Shown: one piece after another, positions 39,768 through 51,369 of the stretch
Position numbering within the stretch: the first letter of the stretch is position 1
How the letters are laid out: each line of letters starts with the position of its first letter
Assembly: GCA_002270565.1 (NCBI GenBank)
Contig: NQMI01000027.1
Coordinates: 142,988 to 206,987 of the forward strand
Direction: 5' to 3'
Length of the DNA stretch: 64,000 nucleotides
Source of the DNA: Stenocarpella maydis
Lineage: Eukaryota > Ascomycota > Sordariomycetes > Diaporthales > Diaporthaceae
Notes under the pieces: generated by a model
Seen by the model: only the letters and a program-made list of their open reading frames with translations
Told to the model about the DNA's origin: nothing
The model's database searches: none
Made by a program: the position numbers and the translations under genes

Positions 39768-41591
39768 ATGTATCCTATAGGCAAGTATAAAATGGCTGGA
39801 TCCCTCCCTAGCAGATCACCCTGCTCTACTGATGTGTCACAGGATTGTTCTCTCAGTTTTTCAGACGATCCACTCACGCCAAAGCGAGCGAGAAAGTGGT
39901 CCTCAAGCGACGAGACACTAATGTCGAACATCAACTCGGAACAAGACGTCAAGATGGAGGGACCCTACAAACCAGATGACGAAGAGAGGGACGAGTACTA
40001 CTTTGGTCTCGCTGGGAAGCCGAGATTGGTCGCCAGAACCAGCCACAACCGCTGGTCAAGGCCGGTACTAACAGGGGCTTACACTGGGCAAATTCGCAAG
40101 CGATACGCTGCAGTGTTCAACTACGAGCAACCCCAAATTGTGGCTAGGTGGACAAAGGACCTGGTTCTTGCACTCGTTAAAGGATTGGATGGTTGCAGAT
40201 GGAGTTATTTCTTCCCGATCCGTATCGGTCTCGACGGCACTCTTGATTCGGAATATGCTACAGTCCTGCTAGTTGCAGTAGAGAGGGACAGCCTACAGTG
40301 GGAAGAAGGTGTTGCCATCGCCTTGGAATGTCGCAGAATTCTACAAGAATTCAGGATCGTTAATATCAAGGTCGAGATCCGCAAGGGCAAGTACGCACCT
40401 AGTGCAGCATTTGCGGAGTTCGAAAGCCAGATTAACACCGCGGCTTGGACAAGTAATCAATACCGGACAAATGAGCTTACCCTACCAATGCTGTCATCCT
40501 TAGGCTACGGTATTGGGTATGCCGACGACCGAAAGGGTGAGGGATCGCTTAGCCTGCATTTAAGGCTGGGAGGTAAGAACCCAGCTGTATATGGCCTTAC
40601 CTGTCGCCATATGGTTTCCAACGGCCGCCAGCCAAATAAATCATACAAGGTCTCAGAAGGGCACAAACAGCAGAACAAGCAGTATCACGTACAAGCTGGC
40701 AATAACGGATTTTCCAAGTGCTTAAAAAGGCTTGCGGATTATCAAAGGGACATCAACAAAGATATTGAACCATTGCGGGACGTAAAGCAGAGGTGGGAGG
40801 ACTGGTACCAATATAACGAAAGCTTGGAACACAGACGCCCTACGGAGCTTCAGACATCCCGCCTTACCCGCCTTTAAAGCTATGATGCCTACAATAAGCG
40901 GGTTATTGACCTCGTCAGCAAGATGAGCCATAAAAAGGACAGGCAAATTGGGCACTTAGCCTTTTGCCCGAAAATGGAATTATCTTCTAAGCAGCCTAGT
41001 TACCTCAAGGACTGGGCACTCATCGAATTGGACCCTGACAAGTTTTCCAGCGAACCAGACAATAAAGTATTCATCAGCAATAAGTCCATTTAGTCCGAGG
41101 ATGATTTGGATAAAGGCTTCCTACAGCTATACCTACAGGACCGAGACATAACTAAAGAATGCAGCAAATGCACCCGTATTGCGAAACGAGGTTTTCAGAC
41201 TGGTCTGAAGTTAGGTAGAATAAACAGCATTAAAGCAGTCATTCAACGCCAGAAGAATTTCAAGGATCAATTCGCCTAGGAGCTGCTCATCATTCCAGAT
41301 TACAAAAACCGCGTATTCTCAGGCAAGGGAGACTCAGGTTCTAGCATCTTTAATATAAATGGTGCAGTCATTAGGTTGGTCAACGGTAGCACTTTTAACC
41401 CATCTGAGGAATAAAGAGGCATCCCGGAACTAAAGAAATACCCTGGTGGAACTATCCGGCTAGAAGACGCGGAAGAGAGTCCCAATCTAGCCACTTGGCC
41501 TGACGGGACTGATATTACCTTCGCTACTCCGATTAAATGGGTGTTGGATAATATTGCAAGGTTTACTAGCCTTGAGCTAAGACTTGCATAA
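39768..41591 (+). pseudogene. trypsin-fold (PA-clan) protease-like pseudogene with four premature stops
   Basis: One continuous plus-strand frame of about 607 codons from the ATG at 39768, broken by TAA (40875), TAG (41091), TAG (41277) and TAA (41412), and ending at TAA 41589. All four breaks are in the same frame with no indel. The first 370 codons are open. The layout of a chymotrypsin-like triad is visible: His in YGLTCRHMVSNG (about 40601), Asp in LKDWALIELDPDK (about 41008) and Ser in RVFSGKGDSGSSIFN (about 41326). The N-terminal 280 residues match no domain I know (LAGKPRLVARTSHNRWSRPV, FPIRIGLDGTLDSEYATVLL). I would place it in the large group of uncharacterised fungal proteins with a degenerate serine-protease fold. 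Inactivation is consistent with C-to-T mutation of CAA/CAG codons. Function unknown. Confidence 0.7.
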
Positions 41592-42263
41592 GTTTAGTAT
41601 ACCCCAAGGTAATAGCATCAGCAGCTCAGTAGAGACTGTTGCTATATCCTTTATTTAGTCCCTGCTTTTACACGAGGATGTCTCTAGTCGTGCAGATCAG
41701 TTGATACTGTCGTTATATCCGTTGTCTTAATGAGATGGGTAATTAGGGTCAAGAGGTCTTGCTTTTGGTTTGGATTTGCGGCTTGGATTTGCGCAGCTTA
41801 GTTGAGACTGTCATCGTGTCTCACCTCAACGAGGCGGGCACCAGCTGTAGAACCTTAGAATTCCAAATCAAAAAGCATCCGCCTAGCAAAGATAACTATT
41901 TATTGGGTCACCTATTGCAATATGATCGTGCGTTATAGTGGTTATTACTGGTGTGCAGTTGCCCACTGCCCTTGCTACAACAATAGCCAACCACGTTTCC
42001 TCCATCCCCAGTCGCAACATATGCTCGTAAATAGTCTAATTATTCTTTCAATACATTTCTTAATTAACGCTCGCGCTCGTCCCTGGCAGATCCTCCCCCA
42101 AGCATATAACCTGGGTAGCTACCAGAGCGTGACCGTAAGATAATGTACTCATTTGTAATCATCCACCAAGACCATATAAACAAGGTGCGGCTAACAAATT
42201 AATTATAAGAATATTCTCCATCAATAGCAAAAACCCTAAGAACATTTTCTACTTATTATTACC
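41592..42263. other. AT-rich spacer
   Basis: AT-rich, no frames. Probably mutated remnant DNA between the protease-like pseudogene and the microexon gene. Confidence 0.4.
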
Positions 42264-44644
42264 CTATTGCAATGTTAATAAGGCATCCTGACTTGGATCA
42301 GCGGGAAATGTAGACCTCAGTTCCTTATGCCATTGATGCTAGGGATGGAAGTCAGCTATAGGTTGTAATTGATTGCAAATTAAACAGTACTCACCAAACT
42401 TCTCTTCCAATCTGACTGTTATGACTAGTGGGAATCAGTAAGAGGGTATAGAAGGTAGCACGCTGATAATTCAAGGTGCTTACTCATACACTGGTTATCT
42501 TCTACTTCTGCTAGAAAATCAGCACCGCAAGTATAATTCGAAGGCGGATAGTAGACTTACCTTCATGGCGGCTTTCTTCTCGTTCTACCAATATTTTGTA
42601 TTAGATATGCACCAGATGAGTTTCATACGGAGTTAACTCACAACGAGCTTGGCCAGATCATCCTATGCAAGGTTATTAGCCAATACTGGTACTGCTCTAA
42701 ATCATATCGGCTTACTTACCTTGATAGTCTTGGAGGTGCTCTATGGTAGTTATTAGTAAATTATTGGGGACCTGCGAATTTATAGAAAGCTTACCCCCTT
42801 ATCCTCCCACATCTATAACGCAAGGTCAGTACAGGTCGCTTAGATCAACAGCAGATTGAAAAGGGAACGTACATCTACCTTAAGCTGCCAGTCCTATTCA
42901 GTATTCATCTACATCAGTATATATCGGACAGACAGCCTGTAAATAATTACTAACGGCTGCTTTCTCCGCCTCCGCCTATGTAAACAGTTAGTAGCGCTAT
43001 ACTCAAATTCAACATTAGAGCAGTAGCAAATACTCACCGCATATCTGATTTCCGCAGCCTAAAAATAAACTTTAGCTCAAATAAGATACAGGACTGCTTT
43101 ATAATAAAGGCTCACACGCTTGGCCTCATACGCGTCCTATTACAACAGTCAGCTTAGTATCCTATAACCACCAGCTTCTAGCACTATTACTACTCACCGC
43201 CATGCGCTATTTGTGGAACTATAACAAATATATTAGCTAGAAGTCTCTCCGTGCAATAATAACGTTTAAACATAGTGAAGTATTCACATTGAGTTTATAC
43301 AGGGCAAACTATACTACATATTAGCATCTCGGTCCTAGGTCGTGGCCAATACATAAGGGTTTCCTACCTCCTTAGTGCCCGGCTTAGGCTTGGGCTCCTG
43401 ATTTAATTATCAGTACAATGGAACGAATTAGAGACACAAAAGACTAAGGACTTAAGTACCGCAAGCTCAATCATAACCTCATGGGTCTCCTTAATATGTC
43501 AGTACCAATAGTTAGAAACAAGGCGTACAAGGGGAGAGAATACTTCCTAGCGCTAGAACCAAGCTATCAGTACATAAATTGCTTTAATATCAATCAGAGC
43601 TTACAGCGCGCTTAGCCAAGGGCTGCTACTACTAAATATTAGTATATAAACACATAAGCAAAGATAGCATGCCTTAAACCAATGGTAAGTAGCTTACAGA
43701 GGTGGACTGTATATGAATCGTACCAGTATAGATCGGAGGTCTAAAATATTTGCCAGGAATACTTACCGGCTGCTCCCCGTACCAAGAGCTGGGCTGCCAC
43801 AATGCATTAGCAATACTAAGAACCAAGTCTATACCAATCACCGCAAGCTCCAGGTTAGGTGTTATCAATGATAGCTGGGAAGTGCCCTTGCATATCAAAG
43901 AATCACTCCAAGTAATGGTTGAGTAATGCTGGAAGCTCTGCAATTCCGAGTTCCCATTTAGTCTAGAGGCCCCTAGGGTACTCACCATTTAAGGGCGTTA
44001 GAACTGGTACGTTTATTAGCATAATAGCAGGACTCGGGAGTGGCTCATTGAGGTCTATACTTACCACCCCACCACAGCCAAATCCACGCTATTTAAATTA
44101 CAGGTGGTTAGCTGTAATCAAAGATTGGAAGGGATTATCCAGTATCGATCATCAATGTGGATGATTTATCATAGGTGGTGGGCAATATCTATGCCTTAAG
44201 AACCTACACGGTTAAATCCACGCTATAATCCATCAATCAAATTAGTTTCAAGCAACTCAAGCTTAACAAAAACTGCAATTCAAAGAAATTACAAGGGGGC
44301 GGCTCATCATATTTTGGAACCTCATCATGGGACGTCATCATGGGACAACTACGCCGATACATTAACTGTATAGATGGGTATTATATGCGGGATGGGAAAG
44401 GGACCGCTGATAAATAGGGGAGGTAGCTTAAGGTAATCAGGAATCAGCCACGGAGTTTTATTAGAGCTCTAAACTTACCAGAGTACTCTAACCCCGGCCC
44501 TAATCAAATGTCAGCAAGCTTCATAGCGGACATCAGACGACATCCAATATGGCGGAGCCTTCCAGCCCATGTCTAGGAAACACGCCTCTGTTGACCTCAG
44601 GAGGCAGTACTTACGGCGTTTGAGCCTTGAGGCGTCTGGAACTA

Positions 44645-44690
44645 ACGTGGGTGGCCCACATTTAGGCCCCCCCCCTGATCTGGGCCACCC
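44645..44690 (+). repeat. left terminal inverted repeat
   Basis: 46 bp, starts ACGTGGGTGGCCCACATTT, contains C9 then CTGATCTGGGCCACCC. It pairs with 49298-49342, differing at three positions plus one C in the run. Confidence 0.9.
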
Positions 44691-44812
44691 CACATCCGCG
44701 TGACACAATATATGCATCGGGGGACCCCCTATAGAAAAACTTGAATATCTCAATGAGGGATTTTTTTCTAATTACCAAATTTCTTCTCTATATTAATTAG
44801 ACCATTATAAAG

Positions 44813-45215
44813 CAATACTCAGAAGCCAACATATATGATGCCCTTATAGCAATAGCGGATAGGATACCAATTCAGCTGCCCTCCTAGCTATAATATATCT
44901 TATAGAGCAACCCTTTAATACCACCTCAATAGTCTGCAAAGCTATTACGCTGCAGCTGACCCTTAGAGGTACCTTTCTAACTAGTAAGAGGACCAATTGG
45001 TACTATTCGTTATCAATTAATCTAGCCTAGGCCTTGGATTAACCTAGTATAAAACCCGGGCTCTTACAGCCCGCCTGGCCTTCCCTGATGAGAATTGCCC
45101 TCTCCTAGGGAGGAAGTGGCTAAGGGCATTTCTCTCCTAGCACCCTAAACTTTAAAGCTGAAAGAATCAACTAATTAAGGCTTATTAGCTAAGGGCAATA
45201 ATAAAGGTAAATATT
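44813..45215 (+). pseudogene. transposase N-terminal part (pogo/CENP-B-like HTH)
   Basis: Plus-strand frame fragments read QYSEANIYDALIAIADRIPI, then after a frame change YNISYRATL, and then LAFPDENCPLLGRKWLRAFL with SRHP after another interruption. These match the Psq-type HTH (YSEANxxxALxAI) and CENP-B/Tc5-type DNA-binding domain (LGxxWxxxFLxRHP) of Fot1/pogo transposases. Several stops and frame changes show it is dead. Confidence 0.75.
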
Positions 45216-45876
45216 AAGGCTTGGTTTAACCTCCTCTAATTGCCTATAGTTAAATTAGTTCTTCTTTATAACTGCTGATGTAACGGGTGCATATAAGCCA
45301 ACGCTGTATATTGGCTGTAGCTAAGCTAGGTTTAATAAGGAAAGAAAAAGTAGAAGGAAAATCCTGCAAGTCCGGAATCCGCGCTCTTATATGCGGAATC
45401 CCAAGTGGGTTTGGAGGGAGCCGGACCGCGCCAACACCTAGGGTTCCACCCTGTAACATTAAATAGAGATAAGCTCTTTATATTAAACTTCTAGAAGTTA
45501 CTAATAAAGCAACTTAAAGTAAAATATAAACTCTTAATAATAGTATATCTATAAATAAATAAATAAATAAAATGAATTAACTATATTATATAATAATACC
45601 TTTAATACTATATTAACTAGTTATAAGATAACTAGATTAAATTACTACTACTAACATAATTTGCCTATAACAGTATAACCTCTAGCATAACTAAATAGTC
45701 ACCTTTCTTTATACTCTATAGATATAAGGCTTAGGCATACTATAAGTTACTACTAGATACTATATTAGTAGAATTAGTAGAATAAAAAGTAATATAATAT
45801 TTAAAAAGAACTTTCTTTTATATAAAAGTAAATAATAAAATATATAAACTAGAAAAGAATTAAGGGATTAATTCTT

Positions 45877-46275
45877 AAGAAGGGAGATAAAGTCTACCTT
45901 ATATACTAAAATGTTAAAGCTAAGTAACCTAGTAATAAACTTGACTATAAAAAGATTAGTCCCTTTAGGATTTTAGAGAAATTCTTAGATATTAATTACA
46001 AACTTTTACTACCTTAAGAAATAAAATAATACTTAGTTTTTTACATCTTACCATTAGAACTAGCATTTTGGAATATGAAATTTAAAATATAAATTAAACC
46101 TATTAATAAGTATAATAAGAAATATAAAGTAAAGATAATTATAGATTTAAGATAATATTAAGGAATAATAGAGTATCTTACTAAATAGACAGGCTACAAT
46201 TTAAGTAAAAATATATAAGAACTAGAGGAAAACCTAATGCATTATGAAAATAAACTCAGGCAATTCTATATCTAA
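45877..46275 (+). pseudogene. chromodomain Ty3/gypsy (chromovirus) integrase C-terminus and chromodomain relic
   Basis: AT-rich plus-strand sequence still reads KKGDKVYLIY, NVKAK-PSNKLDYKKISPFRI, LEKFLDINYKLLLP and YLVFYILPLELA, the conserved integrase C-terminal (GPY/F-like) text of fungal gypsy elements. It is followed by KYKVKIIIDLR, IIEYLTK-TGYNLSKN and ELEENLMHYENKLRQF, the chromodomain. At least seven in-frame stops occur, all TAA or TAG. Known role of such chromodomains: targeting integration to heterochromatin. Confidence 0.82.
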
Positions 46276-47830
46276 TCCGCTATAAACTAACCCTAAGGGA
46301 CTATATAAGCTAACCAACCTTGCTTAGCTAATTATGAAAATCCACTAGACCTACTAGATAACCTAAAGAACTCAACTAGTTAAAACTTTAAGTACTAAAT
46401 AAGCTACCTATAGGTATATTTTCCTTAAAACCTAATACTTAGCACCTTTGACTAATTAATACTCTTATCTACTATTATACTCTAATTAAAAACCCCTACC
46501 TTACCCTTAGAATATAACCATGCCTCCTATACTACTATCCTACTAGCCTCCTCTATAGAGCTCTTTCATATAGCTTTAATAAATCACCCAACAATCTACA
46601 TATGCTTAGCTTTAGCCTTCTTCTTTTCTATATGATCTAATTTATCTAAGTTTAATAGGCTATAATAGATAGCCTGTAATATCTTCTTATGCTATATATA
46701 CTTCTACTTATATAGATAAAGAAGTTTCTCCTTTAACTCCTTAATCTTATCTTTTAGCTTTTAGTACTAAGCTAAGATATAAAGAAGGTCCCTTGAATTA
46801 TTAAGCTCTAGGATATTATACTTTAATTACTACTATTAGATACATTTAGTATAATAGTTTAAGACCTTCTTTAAAACTTTATAAGACTTAATACCCTATA
46901 CTTTATAAGAAGAATAAGATTGCGTTATAATGGTACCTTATAGGATAGTAAATAATAAAGAATTACATTACTTAACCTTCTTAAAATAATAAGATAACTT
47001 AAAAATATAGGAATCATTAACTCTAGACAATATAATAGATTAGGAAGATATAAACGAGAATATAATAAATAAAGATAGCTTACAAGATTACTTTTAAGAA
47101 TAAAAGAAGCAAAAAGGGAGATAATATTATAAACCAACTTAATAATACCCTAGGGACTCATTTAATAACCCAGGCAATTAAAACTAACTACTATAATACA
47201 ACCCTATAAGCACTTAACAGCAGAATCAATATCATGCGCCTAGGCTAGGGTTAGGGTCCAGCTTATAACACTCAGTTACAAGCCATATAAGCTAGCTTAA
47301 TAAAGGATCCTTTAAGCCTCATACTACGGCTTAAAGGCTCATCTTATAAGCTAGCAAGTTACTAAAGAGTCAGAATATATATATAGATATAGTTATCACT
47401 ATAGTAAATAGCTTTTATAAAATAAACTCTTTAGTTATTAATTTAAATATCTAGTCCTACTAATTAAATAGTCTTATAGCATCTAATTATACACTCTTTA
47501 TAAATAGTATCTTTATATACCATCAATTAATTAAGTATTACCTTTATGCCGCTCTATTAATATAAACCCTATAAGTTACTTATTAAACCCTATAAAGGTT
47601 TAATATAATCATTATAAAGTAGCGATTATTAATTATAAATAGGCACTATAGCTATATAACGGTTAATTTCATTTAGAAGTACTTCTTAAATTATATATAT
47701 ATACTTTTCTTGCTAGCATATACCTCCCATATGCTTTAGCCTCTTAATATTAAGGTCTTTATACCGCTTAAAGCGTCCTTTAGGAAGCACTTATATACTC
47801 TAGGGCAATTCAAGTCTTTAATTATAATAA
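46276..47830. other. extremely AT-rich degenerate repeat DNA
   Basis: No open frame over about 70 codons; composition by eye well over 70% A+T. A coiled-coil-like Lys/Leu text is visible on the minus strand at about 46640-46770 but is too eroded to name. Consistent with RIP-mutated retroelement sequence. Confidence 0.6.
47360..47490 (-). repeat. LTR-like inverted repeat, more mutated copy
   Basis: The reverse complement matches 48755-48870 over about 115-125 bp (shared ATAAAAGCTAT and TATTCTGACTCTT blocks). This copy carries T or A where the other has C or G. Confidence 0.65.
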
Positions 47831-47880
47831 TAAGGTAATTGTTAAACGGAACCGCTCAGCAGGGCGTTGGTACTCCGTGC

Positions 47881-47953
47881 AAGGAGTTATCCTAGACTTC
47901 GTTGTAAGGAGTTACCCTAGACTTTCTAGCAAGGAGTTACCCTAGACTTGCGA
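47881..47953 (+). repeat. three tandem 25-bp AAGGAGTTACCCTAGACTT repeats
   Basis: Three copies of a unit of about 25 bp with core AAGGAGTTAYCCTAGACTT, at 47881, about 47907 and 47932. Two of them recur after the N at 48213. Confidence 0.85.
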
Positions 47954-48212
47954 GTCAGGCGATTTTCGCTAAGTACGCCCAGTGCGTGCGCGACGCAAGA
48001 TGAGTTTGGTGGCCGTGAGTCGATTATTTTGGCCTGCATTTGCACCTTAATTCAGACCTCTGCATTACCCTTATTTCTTACCCAAAAAGTATATAACTTG
48101 ATGCATTAGATAGCTTGATTTCTGAAGTTTGTATGTACTTAATTTGGGCATTGCCAGGGCTATGGTTGGCTGGTGGCTTGGAACCAAAGATGGTGTGTTG
48201 GAAGGGCGAATT
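47891..48212 (+). repeat. 322-bp direct repeat, copy 1
   Basis: Starts CCTAGACTTCGTTGTAAGG and ends GGAAGGGCGAATT. It is nearly identical to 48214-48535, with about four transition differences around the TATATAACTT segment. Confidence 0.92.
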
Positions 48213-48213
48213 N
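48213..48213. other. single ambiguous base N at the junction of two direct repeats
   Basis: The only N in the window. It falls exactly between two 322-bp near-identical copies, suggesting an assembly join or collapsed/expanded repeat. Confidence 0.95.
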
Positions 48214-48535
48214 CCTAGACTTCGTTGTAAGGAGTTACCCTAGACTTTCTAGCAAGGAGTTACCCTAGACTTGCGAGTCAGGCGATTTTCGCTAAGTACG
48301 CCCAGTGCGTGCGCGACGCAAGATGAGTTTGGTGGCCGTGAGTCGATTATTTTGGCCTGCATTTGCACCTTAATTCAGACCTCTGCATTACCCTTATTTC
48401 TTACCCAAAAGGTATATAACTTAGTGCATTAGATAGCCTGATTTCTGAAGTTTGTATGTACTTAATTTGGGCATTGCCAGGGCTATGGTTGGCTGGTGGC
48501 TTGGAACCAAAGATGGTGTGTTGGAAGGGCGAATT
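48214..48535 (+). repeat. 322-bp direct repeat, copy 2
   Basis: Second copy of 47891-48212. It is followed directly by a promoter-like segment. Confidence 0.92.
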
Positions 48536-48722
48536 TTCCGGCATTTGCAAATTTGCACCAGAGCCTACCGCAGCGTGCCCAGGGGTGAGACGACGTCGGA
48601 GGGTATATAAGGAGGGCTTACAGAAGCCCAACTTGATTCAATACAAAGTTGTCCAGACCATTGTCAATCGTCCGAATTCGCCTCAGAGCACCACACTGCA
48701 ACCCTGCCGAAACACACGCTGA
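48536..48722 (+). promoter_or_regulatory. LTR-like promoter segment with TATA box
   Basis: Normal-GC DNA inside the AT-rich island. GGGTATATAAGGAGGG at about 48600 is a strong TATA box, followed about 55-60 bp on by pyrimidine- and A/C-rich DNA typical of fungal LTR U3/R. It suggests a young retroelement LTR that has escaped RIP. Confidence 0.5.
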
Positions 48723-48754
48723 ACTGAATGCTATTCTATAGCACAAATTCATCA

Positions 48755-48870
48755 GACTAGCTATAAGGCTATCTAATACTAAGGTTGAATACTTAGATTA
48801 ATGACTAAAAAGTCTATCCTATAAAAGCTATCTATTATAGTAATAACCATATCCTTATATATTCTGACTC
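48755..48870 (+). repeat. LTR-like inverted repeat, less mutated copy
   Basis: Inverted partner of 47360-47490. It keeps C in several TC/TT differences. Confidence 0.65.
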
Positions 48871-49140
48871 TTCATCCATCCTTGGTGATAGACCGCATGG
48901 ACCGTCCATCAACTCATACGGTCCAGCCTTACAGTCGCCTAGACCGCCCATCGGTCCCATCAGTCCACCCTAGTTAGTGGGTCCTTAACCCTAACTCTAA
49001 TAAGGTGGCATCACTAATTGGATCAGGCGGGACGCCCTTTTTGGGAGCCGTTTCCCGACCTGCGGGGTTGTCTTCTGCGGTAGTCAGCCGCCAACACCGA
49101 GTGGTTCATAACAGTTATAATTAACTCAAATGTAGCTTTC

Positions 49141-49266
49141 GCTAATATTGAGGCTATTTATAGGGTAAAAATTGAAGCTAGTAAGGTATCCCCTAATAGC
49201 AATGATTCTGATGATTCCTTAATACTAACGGAAGAGGTATTGGGAATTATTGTAGCGGCTAATTGA
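49141..49266 (+). pseudogene. transposase C-terminal fragment
   Basis: Open plus-strand frame ending in TGA at 49264: ANIEAIYRVKIEASKVSPNS, then NDSDDSLILTEEVLGIIVAA. It lies 30 bp inside the right TIR, where Fot1-like transposases end. Assignment rests on position and tail-like composition. Confidence 0.5.
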
Positions 49267-49297
49267 GGGTGGGAATAGCTTTAATAGTTAACGAGGA

Positions 49298-49342
49298 GGG
49301 TGGCACAGATCAGGGGGGGGCCCAAATGTGGGCCACCCACGT
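49298..49342 (-). repeat. right terminal inverted repeat
   Basis: Complement of the left TIR; ends CCACCCACGT followed by the TA duplication. Confidence 0.9.
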
Positions 49343-49994
49343 TACCTGAGTAAAGTTGTCCAGGAGTCCATCAATACCAGAGAGGCCGCGAACTTACGAT
49401 GTTGTTGTCGTTGTTGCTGAACTATGGCACTATGTTAATAAAGCTCAAGGTACTAGCCATAAGGCAATATAATGGTGAAGAGAACCGCAACAAAATTGAG
49501 AACTTACAGGCATTGTTTGTGTCTGTCTATAGAAAATGGCTAAACTCTGACAACAGAAATCATCTAGTTACCAAGGGATCACTTACGAGAATTTTTTTTG
49601 GAGGTGTCTGCAATCAAAGTTAGCTACCTAATATGCACATGTCTTCGCGCAAGATATAGCTTACGGGCAGTATTCAATCAATCGACGAAGACTATCAATA
49701 ACCAGGTCAGCATATCTTAAATAATATATAATGCACTTGGGAGTATTCCTACAACAGTGGGGTTTGATGAGAGCGAATGTTGCTACCAAGAGGAAGAGAA
49801 GCAAAGAGCCGGCACTGCACAGCACTGAAGTCATGCTGCAGATCCCCTATCTTCTGGTCGAGCCTTCCAACGAAACACTCCTTTCTGTCGACTACATACG
49901 TAATTAGCGCAAAAACATCGCAAACCTGACACTCTTCTCCAAAAGCAACGTAGCGATTGAATGAACGGATCCCAAAATCGAGCCCGAATTGCAC

Positions 49995-50817
49995 CTTAAG
50001 TTAGTTTGCGGTTCCACGATGGTATAGGTACCTAGGTAGAGTGACTCGCATACTAGAGCTGTGAACTTCCTCTCCACCCACCCAGGTGCCACTGCCCAGA
50101 CAATCCTGAATGTAATGAGCAAAGGAAGGTTCGTCCATATACGAGTTCGCGCAAAGTTGGCCGAATTCGAGGAAGGAGGAAGCGACGTTGGGTGTGAATA
50201 GGCGGTTGGCTCGCAGGAGGGCGGGCGGGCGTGGTGATGTAAACCCTCAGGCTGAAGCTCCCGGAGCGTAGACCATGAGCCAGGACTCTGTTAAGGTCGC
50301 ACCCAAGGGGCCCGGTTCATAGCACCATTCTGCACATTCGAAAACCAGAAGCCTGTTGCCCGGCTGCGAAAATAGGTATCCTCAATGCTGGCCTGACTTC
50401 CAAGGTTGCTTTTTGCTGCTCCATGTGTGGTCAAGTGGTCCACTCACTTGCTAGTACTTCCGATGGCTTCCTAGAGCCTGCGTCTACTCTTCCTGGCGAC
50501 CTAGGTATTGCAAGCACCGATATACTATTCTGCGCAATTTCCGTGACGAAGTGGTTCATGGGCTCGCCCCCAATTCCGAGCAGGGCCACATTTGCCTTTG
50601 TATAGAGAAATCGACTTTTGGCGATTATTTTGCAAATTGTTTTCCCCAACTGCACATCCAGCAAAAAACTCAATACATAGGCCACGAGGGCTACAACCGC
50701 TGCAATCACCGCGGCGTCTATAGCGTCGTCGACAGTGCCCAGGACAGCAGTGTCGGTGGCAATGGTTCGGGGGTTCCCGGCCGTGGCAGCAGTCTCTTCG
50801 GTTTTTTGAGCCACCAT
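49995..50817 (-). pseudogene. probable 5' exons of the microexon gene, frame-damaged
   Basis: On the minus strand an open stretch at 50448-50817 encodes MVAQKTEETAATAGNPRTIA and a predicted membrane helix (AAVIAAVVALVAYVLSFLL), ending at a GTGAGT donor. After an 84-bp intron-like gap with acceptor TTTTCGCAG (exon from 50363 downward) comes GNRLLVFECAEWCYEPGPLG, ATLTESWLMVYAPGASA, one TGA, then NRLFTPNVASSFLEFGQLCA and NSYMDEPSFAHYIQDCLGSG. Frames do not join perfectly at two points, so the exact model is uncertain. The text looks like real protein and leads into the exon at 49753-49994. A family of fungal membrane-associated proteins with an AAVxAxVALxAxxxxF helix near the N-terminus is known to me only as uncharacterised. 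Confidence 0.45.
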
Positions 50818-50944
50818 TGCCCTGGCAACATTGATGTGGGCTGTTTTCGACCATCTTGCTGGGTTCTGGGCTTGTTCTTCTCAGCTCGTCTGGTTGGGAT
50901 AATGTTGCAGCTGCACCCAAGACATGCTTGGAGGTATTCAGCAC

Positions 50945-51369
50945 ACTAGTGACTACAGTCCGTACCAGTTGGGCGCGAGAGATTTACATAGTAGGCAGCA
51001 GGTGACTGTCTGGCAGTTGAAAAGTTACCACAGGCCCTGCTAGCCAGGTATTATTGTGGACCTACGAGGCTGCCAGTGAGGCACGGCAGACAGAACTAAG
51101 CACGAAAGCGGAAGCTTGAGCCACATCACAGGCGCTATTTGCGCCCCGGCACCCCGACCGCTTTCCAGCAAGGACTGCGGCAAAGATATCAAAGAAATTA
51201 AGGTATAACAAGCACTTTATATAATTATAAACACTTAAAGACTAGTTAAGCATTTAGCAACAAAAATAAGAGTGACATTAATAAATTTTAGAATATAATA
51301 ACAATTAGGAAAATAATAATATCCAGTTCTGCATAATAAGAAGGCTATCAAGAGCAAAACAATCATTCC
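50945..51369. other. intergenic, AT-rich towards the tRNA
   Basis: 51190-51350 is strongly AT-rich, a possible mutated retroelement remnant next to the tRNA. No gene. Confidence 0.4.

Follow-up and report, generated by a model that had tools for sequence, protein, structure and literature searches.

The closest described systems to the gene considered here are the micro-exon genes (MEGs) of schistosomes, the bicycle genes of aphids and, in filamentous ascomycetes, the nank genes of Tuber melanosporum and Xlr2 of Trichoderma virens. In schistosome MEGs, symmetric exons of 6-36 bp make up ~80% of the coding region (PMC5825161); bicycle genes average ~17 exons, have small internal exons that are almost all of phase 2, and are hard to find by sequence search (PMC9168663); nank (NACHT-ankyrin) genes contain tens of alternatively spliced, codon-sized 3-bp micro-exons (Iotti et al. 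2012, as cited in PMC4986451, PMC3689799 and PMC10197012); and Xlr2, which encodes a zinc-cluster transcription factor, has one regulated micro-exon (PMC11121469). The last of these papers, from 2024, calls functional micro-exons previously undescribed in filamentous fungi, which is at odds with the Tuber reports. Here, we describe a locus in a 64,000-nt stretch of Stenocarpella maydis DNA (contig NQMI01000027.1, positions 142,988 to 206,987), hereafter the window, to whose positions all coordinates refer. The locus is probably a gene, with relatives in Diaporthe, that consists largely of ~26 frame-preserving micro-exons, thirteen of them 21 nt long, separated by introns mostly of 52-74 nt. 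The symmetry of these exons would allow protein variants that differ in heptad steps.

On the minus strand, 28 exons were placed between a candidate start at 49834 and a stop codon at 42264, and were numbered from the 5ʹ-most exon, E1, to the terminal exon, E28 (Table 1). The list was derived from a splice chain together with the proteins of relatives, and was chosen partly for phase 0. All 26 internal exons are multiples of three, between 9 and 30 nt long, and they account for 528 of 773 coding nt (68%; the total includes the uncertain 170-nt E1). No exon is assigned to 49835-49994. The first-pass annotation of this DNA had proposed about 28 minus-strand exons, most of exactly 21 nt, with GTRNGY donors, TAG or CAG acceptors and introns mostly of 50-72 bp. 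A series of that size with many 21-nt members is borne out by the splice statistics and by the matching Diaporthe proteins described below. “Most” was too strong, since only 13 of the 28 exons have exactly this length; moreover, one of them, E12, has an extra residue in both Diaporthe relatives, which also counts against a perfect match of our exon list. The splice consensus holds with exceptions: GTRNGY fits 21 of 27 donors (those after E13, E14, E15, E16, E20 and E26 deviate), and the acceptors comprise 18 TAG, eight CAG and a single AAG, at E14. Intron length had been estimated closely, with 21 of 27 introns being 52-74 nt long and five 86-256 nt. The remaining intron measures 4762 nt because it contains an inserted element, which the first-pass annotation had missed, as it had the frame-0 stops discussed below.

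Is such regular spacing expected by chance? The first-pass annotation had argued that it is not, and the shuffling that it proposed agrees. The two gene spans contain 11 cases of a YAG acceptor followed after exactly 21 nt by a GTRNGY donor, whereas the frequency in the remainder of the window, both strands included, predicts 0.40 (P ~7e-13); in 2000 dinucleotide shuffles the count averaged 0.44 and never exceeded 4. At lengths of 20 and 22 nt the same scan found 0 and 1 occurrences, and across lengths of 9-45 nt it found 36 divisible by three versus 13 that are not. The splice chain was built by dynamic programming with generic fungal splice-site weights, branch motifs included. Over positions 42100-44642, the phase-0 chain has 24 introns and a score of 219.6, as compared with a mean of 28.6 and a maximum of 63.9 for 200 shuffles; without the phase rule the score is 267.0, versus a shuffle mean of 121.7 and maximum of 165.7. 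The best score among 406 control stretches of 2.5 kb, drawn partly from the window and partly from 193 kb of its contig, was 70.1. The N-terminal piece, 49345-49990, which lies outside the span shuffled for the chain score, scores 46.6. CTRAY lies 9-20 nt upstream of 22 of the 27 chosen acceptors versus 8 of the 59 remaining YAGs of this region, a count that is not independent because chain scoring used branch motifs. For the 11 exons picked by acceptor, length and donor only, CTRAY is found 9-20 nt upstream in nine, against a background of 0.16. These results confirm that the regular splice architecture, with its many 21-nt exons, is real and non-random.

The same architecture is reflected in the proteins of two Diaporthe species. 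We used as query a 136-aa peptide spliced from exons between 43793 and 42264, and compared 51 candidate proteins at E-values up to 10. An 18-nt exon of the mechanical chain, at 43529-43546, was later replaced by E13 and E14 given the relatives' proteins; the dropped exon is still part of the 136-aa query used in the protein, Pfam and solved-structure searches. Only two of the 51 candidates matched, both annotated as hypothetical proteins: FJTKL_14744 of Diaporthe vaccinii (E = 3.2e-36, 69% identity to the spliced peptide) and LA080_015149 of D. eres (E = 1.2e-33, 64% identity). A wider profile search with alignment found no further homologue among 7997 candidates scored. Both of these homologue searches addressed 5.8 billion predicted proteins and were restricted to relatives sharing five-residue words.

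In FJTKL_14744, E14-E26 start at residues 104, 114, 124, 131, 138, 145, 152, 159, 166, 172, 179, 186 and 194, and join gap-free over residues 104-197 with 84 of 94 residues identical. The exons abut exactly, and therefore twelve consecutive splices are supported. From E10 to E27, LA080_015149 keeps to these exon boundaries, with E13, E19 and E26 absent; a three-residue piece between E12 and E14 is present in FJTKL_14744 and missing from LA080_015149. In D. eres, E13, E19 and E26 would be either alternatively spliced or missed by annotation. Either case suggests that D. eres also has them as separate exons. Judged by protein alignment, E12, E14-E18 and E20-E25 are conserved in both Diaporthe proteins, E19 and E26 in FJTKL_14744, and E10, E11 and E27, in frame 0, in LA080_015149. 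For E28, no counterpart of at least 55% was found in annotated FJTKL_14744 or LA080_015149, and the 27-nt piece that is an alternative to E1 likewise matches neither protein at 55% or more in any frame.

Table 1. Exons of the candidate gene and the element inserted in it (window positions)
Feature	Position	Strand	Basis and matches
E1, candidate first exon, 170 nt	49665-49834	-	ATG at 49834; hydrophobic, signal-peptide-like start; open to donor at 49664
Alternative to E1: 27-nt micro-exon behind an upstream exon	49665-49691	-	Preferred by free-phase chain
E2, 21 nt	49587-49607	-	Splice chain; no match in FJTKL_14744
E3, 15 nt (19-nt form possible)	49508-49522	-	Splice chain; 4/4 in FJTKL_14744, other frame
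E4, 24 nt	49398-49421	-	Splice chain; 4/7 in FJTKL_14744, other frame
Inserted element, 4.7 kb, AT-rich; 32-nt terminal inverted repeats (97% complementary)	44643-49344	.	Wholly within E4-E5 intron
E5	44615-44635	-	Splice chain; FJTKL_14744 match in order, frame 1
E6	44479-44499	-	Splice chain; frame-0 stop; no FJTKL_14744 match
E7	44208-44222	-	Splice chain; frame-1 stop; FJTKL_14744 match in order, frame 1
E8	44065-44088	-	Splice chain; FJTKL_14744 match in order, frame 1
E9	43986-44003	-	Splice chain; two frame-0 stops; best FJTKL_14744 match out of order
E10, 27 nt	43767-43793	-	9/9 residues in LA080_015149
E11, 9 nt	43698-43706	-	3/3 residues in LA080_015149
E12, 21 nt	43605-43625	-	6/7 residues in LA080_015149; order E10-E11-E12 kept
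E13, 9 nt	43544-43552	-	In-frame stop; absent from LA080_015149
E14-E26: 30, 30, 21, 21, 21, 21, 21, 21, 18, 21, 21, 24, 12 nt	42490-43489	-	Abutting in FJTKL_14744
E17, in-frame stop	43198-43218	-	Frame-0 reading
E27, 21 nt	42395-42415	-	6/7 residues in LA080_015149, frame 0, directly after E25; 6/6 in FJTKL_14744, other frame
E28, terminal exon with stop codon	42264-42338	-	Splice chain

How could such a series be spliced, and what might it encode? Short introns in which donor, branch point and acceptor are close together favor recognition of the intron over recognition of the exon. Because the introns here are mostly 52-74 nt long, with their splice signals close together, intron recognition would be favored: each short intron would be recognized as a unit (intron definition), and the tiny exons would need no recognition of their own. 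Since all internal exons are symmetric, the loss of any one would leave the frame intact. In the C-terminal half, inclusion or skipping of 21-nt exons would change a helical rod by seven residues, or two turns, per step, so that one gene would yield a set of related helical proteins. In this genome, the copy may be damaged, or the stop-bearing exons may be skipped. The pattern in LA080_015149 is as expected from cassette skipping or from an incomplete gene model.

In the structure model of FJTKL_14744, the first long predicted helix, over residues 122-169, contains the six consecutive 21-nt exons E16-E21; the predicted local distance difference test score (pLDDT) is 70-86 over residues 111-160, and 69 over 161-170. 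Among ten seven-residue exon peptides of the relatives, seven have lysine or arginine at residue 5 (permutation fraction 0.0009), as do six of nine in the window (permutation fraction 0.014), with exons hand-chosen and E25 trimmed to seven residues for this register test. The bias suggests a common register among the seven-residue exons. We favor the reading in which the predicted helix would be lengthened or shortened in heptad steps. Rather improbable, in our estimation, is the more elaborate proposal of a splice-built molecular ruler, in which each 21-nt phase-0 exon encodes one heptad, regulated skipping produces a protein ladder, and symmetry allows nonsense mutations to be tolerated by dropping exons.

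Neither FJTKL_14744 nor LA080_015149 has a precomputed Pfam domain. UniRef names FJTKL_14744 Remorin, but a Pfam scan at E-values up to 10 found no remorin family in the 136-aa peptide, the window peptide having been scanned rather than FJTKL_14744 itself. A sequence search of solved structures returned one match, to a putative mannosidase (E = 1.3), which we took as chance.

Several observations weigh against a phase-0, heptad-step gene. There are frame-0 stops in E6, E9 (two), E13 and E17, while in the third frame, into which ATG 49834 leads, E2-E13 carry no stop. Reading in mixed frames also gives a stop-free chain, one that crosses 22 introns. FJTKL_14744 has E12, but E10 and E11 are not found there in frame 0 in order, and it reads E27 in another frame. 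Differences between FJTKL_14744 and LA080_015149 may be gene-prediction errors. The introns of the Diaporthe relatives were deduced solely from their proteins, and the exon joins in S. maydis solely from DNA and those same proteins. The structure model is weak (mean pLDDT 54.8, predicted template modeling score 0.25, two-sequence basis), and a Foldseek search of the PDB with the predicted structure found nothing. The hydrophobic register is also weak, with permutation fractions of 0.05 for the 10 exons of the relatives, 0.25 for the nine in the window and 0.38 for the six of helix 1. In the N-terminal part, E3, E4, E5, E7 and E8 match FJTKL_14744 in order, in a frame that differs from that of the C-terminal part. 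By hydropathy, ATG 49834 opens a hydrophobic, signal-peptide-like stretch; FJTKL_14744 has no such start, and we keep secretion of a product starting there as a possibility only.

The strongest rival explanation, to which we give an even chance, is that this copy is a decaying pseudogene, the relic of a gene that works in other Diaporthe and was damaged here beside an element affected by repeat-induced point mutation (RIP). The frame-0 stops listed above are consistent with decay, and FJTKL_14744 has amino acids where E13 and E17 would lie. E2 is, as judged by eye, two bases longer than FJTKL_14744 implies. The inserted element has RIP-like dinucleotides (TpA/ApT 1.39, (CpA+TpG)/(ApC+GpT) 0.82); the corresponding values are 1.17 and 1.12 for the larger part of the gene, and 0.88 and 1.24 for its N-terminal part. 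However, the branch motif is retained at most acceptors, albeit in a list partly chosen for it, and E14-E28 have only one frame-0 stop before the terminal one, whereas the other two frames have 11 and 6. Furthermore, the stop-bearing exons are all symmetric and could be skipped, and E17 could be shortened via a later acceptor.

An alternative origin for the many introns is a burst of introner-like elements into ordinary coding sequence. The uniform intron length is in keeping with this, but the best pair among 24 intron-plus-exon units scored 35, below the shuffle maximum of 41 (60 rounds). Mean similarity of the units is slightly raised, at 19.1 versus 17.9 for shuffled units (standard deviation 0.28), which may come from shared splice motifs. 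An old, diverged burst may still be compatible with these data; overall, we consider an introner origin unlikely. General exon duplication was rejected because the intron-plus-exon units are not alike overall. A 20-nt near-repeat (44073-44092 and 44207-44226) spans the starts of E8 and E7, and is a possible exon duplication.

Very improbable is a spliced non-coding RNA with exons that are multiples of three by coincidence. It would account for the frame-0 stops in the N-terminal half and for the Pfam result with the 136-aa peptide, in which no family exceeded the cut-off (the only match, HbpS-like, was sub-threshold with E = 0.018), but not for the conservation of E14-E26 in FJTKL_14744; moreover, no Rfam family reached its gathering score in 41000-51000. 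Finally, that splice-like sites in AT-rich DNA lined up by chance can practically be dismissed: short splice consensus sequences are common, and shuffles give chains of up to 19 introns, but these are low-scoring, the observed chain scores and 21-nt counts exceed all shuffles and control stretches, and the exactly abutting Diaporthe matches refute a chance series for the C-terminal half.

A 20-nt piece of the terminal repeat of the element in the E4-E5 intron occurs 10 times in the genome, its own copy counted. Inside the element are two 300-nt copies (47891-48190 and 48214-48513) that are 99% identical, 323 nt apart, with N between them, possibly an assembly join. Nine flanking open reading frames were scanned, and four have Pfam families: CYK3, Mis6/CENP-I, ABC ATPase and GNAT acetyltransferase. 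Among the best 120 of 743 matches to the flanking CYK3 protein, the nearest from a named species, D. helianthi, has 86% identity and another protein 90%, so that this genome belongs to Diaporthe or close to it. At the DNA and protein levels, searches for a second copy of the micro-exon gene in the 53.5-Mb genome gave no hit beyond the gene and its terminal exon; six-frame search is nearly blind to seven-residue exons (one such search missed the gene itself), and split paralogues could escape it. No further splice chain emerged from 193 kb of the contig that carries the gene, a length equal to ~0.4% of the genome.

What would a gene of this kind mean for fungal splicing? Filamentous ascomycetes are usually thought to have few, fairly large exons. 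If our reading is correct, the spliceosome of a filamentous ascomycete can process a long series of exons of 9-30 nt, and the locus would be a compact system in which to study intron definition, the evolution of micro-exons and alternative splicing. Annotation may overlook most genes of this kind: just two relatives were found among the candidates compared from the predicted proteins searched.

The first-pass annotation knew of no described ascomycete family with this architecture. Nothing among the open-licence papers retrieved contradicts that statement, and we found among them no other filamentous-ascomycete gene built mainly of micro-exons; reports of micro-exons exist, however, for Trichoderma (PMC11121469) and for the nank genes of T. 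melanosporum (PMC4986451, PMC3689799, PMC10197012). Among top-ranked papers of the open-licence literature from 2024 on, we found no description of the microexon-tandem genes of arbuscular mycorrhizal fungi to which that annotation also referred. We found none of the MEGs, bicycle genes, nank genes and Xlr2 to match the S. maydis gene in all features. Xlr2 likewise belongs to a filamentous ascomycete, but has a single micro-exon. The nank genes share with this gene a filamentous ascomycete host and many micro-exons; theirs are of 3 bp, in contrast to the 9-30 nt here, and no NACHT or ankyrin domain was found in the 136-aa peptide. Schistosome MEGs resemble it in their short symmetric exons, and would share with it a potential for isoforms. 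They belong to another kingdom, no MEG was among the homologues found, and the two are likened by description, without direct comparison; hence, the architecture is alike with no homology detected. MEG products are described as secreted or membrane-anchored, whereas a hydrophobic start would exist here only if ATG 49834 is used. Bicycle genes share with the S. maydis gene numerous small internal exons in a single phase and an elusiveness in sequence searches, but that phase is 2 in the aphid genes, whereas here it would be 0, as aligned for E14-E26 in FJTKL_14744 and for E10-E12 and E27 in LA080_015149.

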